Assembly (NCBI RefSeq): GCF_009389715.1
Contig: NC_052394.1
Span: forward strand, 22,632,899-22,696,898
DNA from: Phoenix dactylifera
Lineage: Eukaryota > Streptophyta > Magnoliopsida > Arecales > Arecaceae
Direction of reading: 5' to 3'
DNA length: 64,000 bases
A program made the position numbers and the translations under genes. The notes below the pieces were generated by a model. That model searched no databases, had not been told where the DNA came from, and was given only the letters and a program-made list of their open reading frames with translations. This document shows, one piece after another, positions 36,133 to 40,412 of the stretch. Numbering within the stretch: position 1 is the first letter of the stretch; the number at the start of each line of letters is the position of its first letter.

Positions 36133-37237
36133 GTATGTGATTTCTTCGCCGGCAATTGATCGGTTGTATTATACTTTGCTGAAGAATATAAGAAGATATG
36201 TTGCTTCTGCTTGGAATTGAAATATAGAGATAAATGCCTTCCATGTTCAATCACAAATGGAGATGTTAGTTATGATAAAGAGAGTACTGTTGTATCCCTT
36301 TTCCGTCTTCTGTTTTATCATCCTCAAAGGTATTACTTTTCCTTCAATTCTTGGATTTATTTTCCTTCAATGGACAAAATATGTTTATTTCTAATCATGA
36401 TGCTAGTGCTACTGTAATACACAGCTCTCACAATTTATGTAGCTTCTTCATTGAATCCTTGGACCATAATCAGAACCATTACAAAAGCACCACCTTGGAC
36501 CATGCGACATGCCATCAGCGCATGGAAAGTTTTCAGCAAGGCTGCTTTTTTCTTCTTTTTTTTTTAGTGCTAAGACCGGTTATTCATACCGTCCTAGTAT
36601 ATATACATCGAAAAAAATCAAAAAGTAAAATATCTCAAAAGGCTCTTGGAAAGAGCATATCATCCGAGTACAAAAAGAGATCTTTCTATCTGCAATTCCA
36701 TTCACCTCATGCAAAATATGTCTTGCAATAAAGAAGATGTTTTCTCTCGCCAGTCTCTAAATATTCTGCAATAGAGGACGTATACTTATCCTCCTAACCT
36801 GCCTCTAGACCCAGCCAATTGCCGTAGGGCCTACTTATTTCCTTTTTTTTTCCTTGTCAAGTTTCCACTACAAGATTTAGAGAGGTTCCCCCTGCATACA
36901 AGAACACTGTTTTCGTATTTAGAATCTGGTTAAGAAGAAGCAAACTTACCATCGTTCCAAGGTCATCCTCTTCCTCAATACTATTCTCCCATGGTGAAAA
37001 TTTCTCTGTGTCCAATTTTTCCCCTCGCATGCTGCTTTTGGTTGTCGAGGATCACCATAAACTTGGCACCCGAGGAAGCAATCTCACAGGGCAACCTAAA
37101 TTTAAGATTGTTTATGCTCGTCTATAATCCTCCATTCATATCGTAAGATTGCATGTGTGGATGTGCATGTACGATTTGCATGTTTAGCAAAAGCTAGTTC
37201 TTATAAGTGCATCTGCTCCCCTTCAGTTGATTGACAG
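36133..37237 (+). other. Leader (5' UTR) intron of the second DC1 gene
   Basis: Donor GTATGTG at 36133 and acceptor TTGACAG ending at 37237, 80 nt before the start codon. An alternative acceptor (CTTCAG, ending 37226) is 11 nt upstream. Position and donor parallel the first copy, supporting a duplicated gene with its promoter-proximal part. It contains a decayed LINE 3' end at about 36.54-36.79 kb. Confidence 0.6.
36541..36790 (-). mobile_element. Strongly decayed LINE 3' end
   Basis: T-rich tail at about 36545-36567. Reading the minus strand upstream of it, the coding sense of the family's RNase H end (a His-Ile-Phe-x-Glu-Val-Asn-type stretch, then a DILLFDFF-type tail) is still visible across several frame changes. 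More diverged than the copy in the first DC1 leader intron and apparently not the same insertion. Confidence 0.5.
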
Positions 37238-37317
37238 GTAGTTCTTTTTGGATAACGTCCATCACCTGGGTTCATCGACCACAAAGGAGACAAAAGCACA
37301 CATCGACGGAACAGGAC

Positions 37318-38067
37318 ATGATCTACGGGGAGATTAGTCACTCCAGCCACCCTGATCACAAGCTCAAGCTAGAGCACAGGGAGAGACCCTACAACTGTGA
37401 TGGGTGCAAGGAACTGGGATTTGGATCCCGGTATACATGCGAGGAGTCATGCAACTTCCATCTCCACAAGGATTGCGCCTCCCCTGAGAACACCTTCACC
37501 CATCCTTTCTTCCCAGGATGTCTGTTCCATTTCCTCGAAATCGGCAAGCCAGATCGATTTTGCGATGCATGCGGTCGGGACATCAAAGGCTACGTCTACC
37601 ATTGCTTCACCGAAGGATGGGACCTGCACCCCAGCTGCGCGCTCCTCCCGCATACTATAAACGATGGTGAGACGAAGCTGGTTCTCCATCGAGAGGTGAC
37701 CTCGAGATGCCACCGGTGTGGGAAGAAGGAGTTGAGGAAGAGTGCCAAAAGCTGGTCCTATGTGTCGACGTGCGAGGAATGTCACCTCCATGTGGCTTGT
37801 GTGAAGGAGATTCTGCTCGAGAATTGGGAGAAGCAGCACCTCTGCGATGGCAAGTTCGAGCGCAGAGCCAAGACGGAGAACAGTCTTGCAATAGAAAGCA
37901 GAGACTCGAAGCTCCACATTGTTCTCCAAAAGAAAGAAAGCAAGCCCGGGAAGCTTGCAAAGTTTACGAAGATGGTGAAGGTTGCAATCACTTTAATCAT
38001 GGCTGCGGTAGTCGGAGATCCCACTGCTCTGGTTGCAACTCTTATCGCATCCCTTATCAACCATTAA
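37318..38067 (+). CDS. DC1-domain (Cys/His-rich C1) protein, downstream tandem copy
   Basis: Single coding exon, 249 residues from the ATG that aligns with the first copy. The frame is open further upstream to 37231, but those codons have no counterpart and begin without an ATG. Same three C1-like modules: about 8-56 (CDGC, CNFHLHKDC), about 62-112 (HPFFPGCLFHFLE, CDACGRDIKGYVYHC, WDLHPSCA) and about 124-166 (CHRCGKKELRKSAKSWSYVS, CHLHVACVKE). The Lys-rich linker and hydrophobic tail with MAAVVGDPTALVA are kept almost unchanged, although the linker before them (about 175-205) has diverged most. Selection on the tail is therefore likely. Zinc ligands appear intact. Function is unknown beyond the DC1 family; likely the same kind of role as its neighbour. 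Confidence 0.92.
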   Translation: MIYGEISHSSHPDHKLKLEHRERPYNCDGCKELGFGSRYTCEESCNFHLHKDCASPENTFTHPFFPGCLFHFLEIGKPDRFCDACGRDIKGYVYHCFTEGWDLHPSCALLPHTINDGETKLVLHREVTSRCHRCGKKELRKSAKSWSYVSTCEECHLHVACVKEILLENWEKQHLCDGKFERRAKTENSLAIESRDSKLHIVLQKKESKPGKLAKFTKMVKVAITLIMAAVVGDPTALVATLIASLINH

Positions 38068-38435: not shown

Positions 38436-38737
38436 TCAGCGGTCCTTGTTGGTTTCTCCGCCCTTGTTCTCCACTGGCGGCAACGTCTGCATATCATCGA
38501 TTCCAGAAAAATGTTAGTCGTGGCATTTCATCGAACAGGATTTGGGCATCGACATATACACGAAGACGAAAGGCGGCTCGCTAGAGGAGGACAAACCAGG
38601 TCGGGCTTATAGATATTGTGGACCACGGAAGCGCCGGCGAGTAGGGAGACGACCACGACGACGCATGACCGGGCGAGGGACGGCGTGCCCGTCGGCTGCC
38701 TCCCGCCTCCGAACTTCTTCACGGTATTATTCCTCAT
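38436..38737 (-). CDS. Small single-span membrane protein, UQCC6/BRAWNIN-like (complex III assembly)
   Basis: Two exons: 38737-38597 (47 codons) and 38486-38436 (16 codons plus TGA), joined by a 110-nt GT-AG intron, phase 0; 63 residues. The N-terminus is basic and Gly-rich (MRNNTVKKFGGGRQPTGTPS), then a Val/Leu-rich span of about 16 residues (VVVVVSLLAGASVV), then HNIYKPDL joined across the intron to TLPPVEN, and a short charged tail. Human UQCC6/BRAWNIN, a 71-residue inner-membrane protein needed for ubiquinol-cytochrome c reductase (complex III) assembly, has SLLAMCAGAEVVHRYYRPDL followed by TIPEIP. The shared pattern is SLL, AGA, VVH, Y-x-PDLT-x-P. I also recall conserved unnamed plant proteins with the same core. 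Mitochondrial location and role are inferred from that resemblance. The gene is head-to-head with KIN17. Its exon 2 is also found broken at 35.63-35.72 kb. It is shorter than most gene-finding cut-offs. Confidence 0.8.
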
Positions 38738-39155: not shown

Positions 39156-40412
39156 ATGGGGAAGAACGATTTCTTGACGCCGAAGGCGATCGCGAACCGG
39201 ATCAAGGCGAAGGGTTTGCAGAAGCTGCGGTGGTACTGCCAGATGTGCCAGAAGCAGTGCCGGGACGAGAACGGGTTCAAGTGCCACTGCATGAGCGAGT
39301 CCCACCAGCGCCAGATGCAGGTATTTGGCCAGAACCCCCACCGCGTCGTCGACGGCTACTCGGAAGAATTCGAGAACGCCTTCCTCGACCTCATGCGCCG
39401 CTCCCACCGCTTCTCCCGCGTTGCCGCCACCGTCGTCTACAACGAGTATATCTCCGATCGCCACCACGTCCACATGAACTCCACCCAGTGGGCCACCCTC
39501 ACCGAGTTCGTCAAGTACCTCGGCCGCACCGGCAAGTGCAAGGTCGAGGACACCCCCAAGGGCTGGTTCATCACCTACATCGACCGGGACTCCGAGACTC
39601 TTTTCAAAGACCGCCTCAAGAACAAGCGCCTCCGTGCTGACCTCGCCGACGAGGAGCGCCAGGAGCGCATCATCGCCCTCCAGATCGAGCGCGCCACCTC
39701 CCTCTTTTGCTCCTCCTCCCCCTCCTCTGAAGAGCCCCCGTCTTCATCATCGGAACCTCCTGAGAACCGCGATTCCAGCTCCAATCCCGATTCCAGTGTC
39801 AAAATCGACAATGGTTCCGGTGGCAAGATAGCATTTTCCCTGCAATCAACATCTGCTACTTCAAAATCCAATATTGCAAATGAGACGACCTCCAAGGCCC
39901 CGAAATTAGGCTTTGACGAGGGACCTGAGTCCGAGAAGGATGTTGCTGCTTTCAAGAAAAGTAGAGCTGCTGGTGATCGAGGTGGCGCTGGGTCGTCGGC
40001 ATTGGATGAGTTGATGAGAGAGGAGGAGAAGGCAAAGGAGCGGAGCAATAGGAAGGACTACTGGCTCTGTGAGGGGATTGTGGTCAAGGTGATGAGCAAG
40101 ACATTGGCAGACAAGGGGTATTATAAGCAGAAAGGGGTGGTGAAGAGGGTGATTGATAAGTATGTTGGGGAGATTGAGATGTTGGAGAGCAAGCATTTGC
40201 TGAGGGTTGATCAGGAGGAGCTGGAGACGGTGATCCCGCAGATTGGTGGACTAGTGAGGATCGTTAATGGGGCATATCGAGGATCGGATGCGAGGCTACT
40301 TTCTGTGGATACCAAAGACTATTGTGCAAAGGTTCAGATTGAAAAGGGAATTTATGATGGGAGGGTGCTGAAGGCCATTGAATATGAGGACATTTGCAAA
40401 ATATTGCACTGA
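39156..40412 (+). CDS. KIN17: KIN17 DNA/RNA-binding nuclear protein
   Basis: Intronless, 418 residues, full length for the family (Arabidopsis about 411). A conserved N-terminus (MGKNDFLTPKAIANRIKAKG) leads into a C2H2 finger with ligands C28, C31, H44 and H50 (CX2CX12HX5H). A winged-helix domain follows at about 51-160 (NPHRVVDGYSEEFENAFLDL, VYNEYISDRHHVHMNSTQWA), then a Ser/Pro-rich variable linker, a Lys/Glu-rich stretch and a C-terminal tandem SH3-like/KOW region (about 302-418: WLCEGIVVKVM, GLVRIVNGAYRG). KIN17 is a eukaryotic chromatin- and spliceosome-associated protein linked to DNA replication and repair and to splice-site fidelity. The 5' half is GC-rich and the 3' half is not. A broken duplicate lies 4.4 kb downstream. 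Annotation is secure from the motifs. Confidence 0.97.
   Translation: MGKNDFLTPKAIANRIKAKGLQKLRWYCQMCQKQCRDENGFKCHCMSESHQRQMQVFGQNPHRVVDGYSEEFENAFLDLMRRSHRFSRVAATVVYNEYISDRHHVHMNSTQWATLTEFVKYLGRTGKCKVEDTPKGWFITYIDRDSETLFKDRLKNKRLRADLADEERQERIIALQIERATSLFCSSSPSSEEPPSSSSEPPENRDSSSNPDSSVKIDNGSGGKIAFSLQSTSATSKSNIANETTSKAPKLGFDEGPESEKDVAAFKKSRAAGDRGGAGSSALDELMREEEKAKERSNRKDYWLCEGIVVKVMSKTLADKGYYKQKGVVKRVIDKYVGEIEMLESKHLLRVDQEELETVIPQIGGLVRIVNGAYRGSDARLLSVDTKDYCAKVQIEKGIYDGRVLKAIEYEDICKILH

Follow-up and report, generated by a model that had tools for sequence, protein, structure and literature searches.

A two-exon Phoenix dactylifera gene for a 63-residue protein of the UQCC6/BRAWNIN/Sloth2 family (DUF4516)

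A two-exon gene and its surroundings

The stretch of Phoenix dactylifera DNA analysed here (64,000 nt, hereafter the window) carries on its minus strand a gene of two exons, 38737-38597 and 38486-38436, which on translation encodes 63 residues. The first exon supplies 47 codons for the N-terminus, a predicted membrane-spanning stretch (residues about 21-39) and the VVHNIYKPDL core, as delimited by translation, hydropathy and the DUF4516 match described below; the second supplies 16 codons, TLPPVENKGGETNKDR, followed by a TGA stop. Between them lies a phase 0 intron of 110 nt (38487-38596, minus strand) with GT-AG borders (GTTTGT...ATGCAG) and a branch-point-like CTAAC at 38513-38517, recognised by consensus match only, whose A at 38514 lies 27 nt short of the intron's final base. 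Translation returned exactly the gene model that a sequence-only reading of the window had put forward (47 plus 16 codons, a 110-nt intron, 63 residues). A TGA in frame six codons upstream of the ATG bounds the start, provided that there is no coding exon further upstream, and the third codon positions are 81% GC.

Divergent from this gene is a KIN17-type gene (39156-40412, plus strand) with a WH_KIN17 domain (E 1.5e-46), two SH3-type KIN17 domains and a KIN17 zinc finger; a search of the genome with E limited to 0.001 gave no KIN17 match besides it. About 420 bp separate the two ATGs, and a common promoter is possible. Downstream and convergent, an ORF of 278 aa (37231-38067, plus strand) contains three C1_2 (DC1-type) stretches, a family typical of plants.

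Family membership

Searched against Pfam, the spliced protein matched PF14990 (DUF4516) and no other family, with an E-value of 1.3e-16 and 60.4 bits over a cut-off of 27, residues 15-55 aligning with profile positions 2-44 of 46. A 24-residue stretch quoted by the earlier reader as the core of human BRAWNIN matched DUF4516 too (46.4 bits, E 3e-12); 12 of 22 aligned residues are identical between this quoted core and the window protein, and 18 of 22 are similar. The kinship with UQCC6/BRAWNIN proposed in that reading is supported by the profile, both sequences falling in PF14990.

Permuted versions of the protein did not match DUF4516 in any of nine cases (two gave weak matches to unrelated families, below the cut-off), and neither the reversed sequence nor one hand-scrambled sequence had any Pfam match. 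A search of solved structures returned none matching the spliced protein, and a ribosomal L28 chain returned as a structural match of the human core (E 0.87) was taken as chance. Within the window, tblastn found the two exons and three further, weak matches (E 1.3, 5.0 and 5.7), also taken as chance, while one pattern scan of prokaryotic contigs for relatives gave 416 pattern matches, none of them confirmed. That the resemblance is accidental or the gene a pseudogene is barely credible given the strength of the profile match, the failure of all nine permutations, the open frame and the GT-AG sites, even with a disrupted related copy on C12 of the same genome to indicate that copies do decay there. 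Judged by the profile, the gene adds one more ordinary member to the UQCC6/BRAWNIN/Sloth2 family.

Via the quoted human core, the window protein thereby shares its Pfam family with human UQCC6 (BRAWNIN, C12orf73) and Drosophila Sloth2. The tail and the N-terminus of human UQCC6 probably differ from its own. Both proteins are small (63 aa against 71 aa for human BRAWNIN), and, as far as the available descriptions go, both combine one N-terminal hydrophobic stretch with a VVHxxY[KR]PDLT[IL]P core. The window protein is unlike SMIM4/Sloth1 (UPF0640, PF15114), since DUF4516 was the sole family that it matched.

Spliced and unspliced forms

Of the 995 GT/GC..AG pairs compared in the region where exon 1 ends, a single one, the proposed pair, reads [KR]PDL[TS][ILV]P across the junction; this screen targeted a word already expected, and it supports the model but is no substitute for reads. 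The frame also stays open past the donor, and the resulting intron-retained ORF of 69 aa still scores 51.3 bits with DUF4516, so that the profile match alone is no proof of the splice. The donor itself, GTTTGT, is weak, the usual consensus being GTAAGT. Both observations would suit a functional product of 69 residues instead of the spliced 63, which we nevertheless regard as very improbable: exon 2 contributes about 9 bits to the match (60.4 spliced vs 51.3 read-through), joining it to exon 1 gives TLPP, the family word arises from only that one site pair, and in the C12 copy the stretch corresponding to exon 2 (L003:1365-1409; 9 of 15 residues identical) keeps both its frame and its stop.

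Protein features

From its start, the spliced protein runs through a basic N-terminus, a hydrophobic stretch and the conserved VVHxxYKPDLT[IL]P segment to a tail that is short and polar. Net charge over residues 1-23 is +5. Residues 21-39 form the single hydrophobic 19-residue stretch (Kyte-Doolittle mean 2.18), which on hydropathy is long enough for one membrane span and would make up a predicted N-terminal helix. The stretch and its +5 flank match the description of BRAWNIN in the available text of PMC7066179.

Copies in the genome

A DUF4516 scan of the plant's own genome (773 Mb in 2391 contigs, searched one exon at a time and with 24 candidates scored) gave a single match with an E-value of 0.001 or below, the window gene. 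Searching the genome with the protein at E up to 10 returned five places: its own two exons, a stretch of C12 that contains one TGA (27.1 bits) and two weak ones (19.3 and 17.2 bits) that were set aside, as they gave no alignment in local tblastn. The C12 copy aligns with both exons and part of the intron, and it was considered as a working paralog. It was rejected as an intact gene, for an in-frame TGA stands where the exon 1 core ends, a short repeat lies within the copy and the position matching the donor has no GT; the stop and the missing donor indicate that it has probably decayed. Set against it, the window copy with its open frame and GT-AG sites is favoured as the gene. The family thus stands here at a single match over the cut-off and a disrupted copy, in contrast to the two genes reported for Arabidopsis in the available text of PMC9681215.

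Family biology and plant relatives

Human BRAWNIN is described in the accessible part of PMC7066179 as a 71-residue inner-membrane peptide that is targeted and anchored by an uncleaved N-terminal segment, and its deletion in zebrafish led to complete loss of complex III (PMC7066179). The human protein, as C12ORF73, points its C-terminus into the intermembrane space, was found together with new CYTB and with UQCC1, UQCC2 and SMIM4, and depends on SMIM4 for its level (PMC8719881, available text). The same source assigns its role to early assembly, in contrast to the later stages named in a 2020 report. A review, in the portion available, gives BRAWNIN, SMIM4 and C16ORF91 as the components of a COMB complex (PMC12455275).

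Plant relatives are already in print. The eLife 2022 study of Drosophila Sloth1/2 lists, in its accessible text, AT5G57080 and AT4G26055 as Arabidopsis orthologs of Sloth2/C12orf73 and one ortholog in Plasmodium, notes that both organisms have homologs of Sloth2 similarity only, and names SMIM4/Sloth1 as the partner of Sloth2, of which it is proposed to be a distant paralog (PMC9681215). The likeness of the two Arabidopsis proteins to the window protein is one of published family assignment (PMC9681215), and one or other of the two loci is also mentioned in PMC4526543. The novelty implied in the sequence-only reading, of a plant counterpart to a vertebrate peptide, does not hold against these published orthologs (PMC9681215): the finding is correct in substance and, the Arabidopsis orthologs being in print, not new in kind. 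It is in line with published work, in which the BRAWNIN family extends beyond vertebrates, and adds a clean two-exon gene model from another genome. The literature searched, as far as its text was available, yielded no experimental work on a BRAWNIN from plants, the accessible part of PMC10372682 is silent on plant BRAWNIN, and the term 'DUF4516' was not found in the literature searched.

Partner genes

The UQCC1/CBP3-family model, whose Pfam accession we take to be that of UQCC1, matched two stretches of C2 with 57.9 and 29.1 bits (cut-off 21.5). It also matched 3 of 14 control genomes, all three bacterial, and is therefore not specific to mitochondria. PF15114, presumably SMIM4, gave nothing over the cut-off in the genome (best E 2.67, 17.5 bits), and UQCC2 (PF20180, UQCC2_CBP6) had no match there, the 14 control genomes being silent too; exons were searched unjoined in both cases, so the absence of SMIM4 and UQCC2 is not proven. 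With SMIM4 below the cut-off and UQCC2 unmatched, the partner set in this genome may differ from the human one. The SMIM4 result of this exon-wise search sets the genome apart from human, where C12ORF73 has SMIM4 as a partner according to the available reports.

Proposed role

We consider it very probable, on the analysis as a whole, that the window holds a nuclear gene for a plant UQCC6/BRAWNIN/Sloth2 member, a microprotein of the inner membrane that would take part in early cytochrome b and complex III assembly. The role is assigned by homology with the human and fly proteins only; what supports it is the DUF4516 match, the hydrophobic stretch with its basic flank, the UQCC1/CBP3-family match and the Arabidopsis orthologs. 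The uncleaved helix would target the protein to the inner mitochondrial membrane and anchor it there, with the C-terminus presumably facing the intermembrane space; the protein may then join UQCC1-type chaperones on cytochrome b that has just been made, and could in this way stabilise an early complex III intermediate. Against this explanation stand the unmatched SMIM4 and UQCC2, the unspecific UQCC1 model, the early/late disagreement and the weak donor.

The same SMIM4 result, together with the presence in Arabidopsis of Sloth2-like proteins only (PMC9681215, available text), would fit a DUF4516 protein that works elsewhere in plant mitochondria, for instance as a small accessory subunit or on another complex, plants on this view lacking the SMIM4 partner. 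We hold this to be unlikely, considering that the core segment is strongly conserved and that a UQCC1-family match is present in the genome.

We tentatively suggest, as a reading that we would not yet favour, that flowering plants carry out a step of complex III assembly by BRAWNIN alone, without SMIM4, and may preserve an ancestral single-peptide state that preceded the animal Sloth1/Sloth2 duplication. The published observation on Arabidopsis and Plasmodium, in the text available, already points in this direction (PMC9681215). Should plants truly be without SMIM4, a plant knockout would test whether BRAWNIN by itself suffices in complex III assembly.

The duplicated block on C12

Compared codon by codon, the window gene and its C12 copy differ 9, 2 and 13 times at positions 1, 2 and 3 in exon 1 (n=27; 8 synonymous and 11 nonsynonymous codons) and 5, 3 and 4 times in exon 2 (n=15; 2 synonymous and 6 nonsynonymous codons). 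This hints at constraint on exon 1 but not on exon 2, and we do not count it as evidence, because the sites are few and one of the two sides has probably decayed.

The likeness extends well beyond the gene. A block of C12 (L013, G000:C12:6763000-6772900) reads as a compressed duplicate of the window from 16.7 to 52.4 kb, its pieces being 67-83% identical. Of 15 matching pieces, 13 keep the same order and orientation, at 16.7-19.6 kb, 37.3-38.6 kb and 49.4-52.4 kb of the window, and two short ones fall off the line. Given this collinear order, the C12 copy appears to descend from an old duplication, segmental or of the whole genome, as the partner that decayed. The duplicate block has no KIN17 match and holds the disrupted DUF4516 copy.
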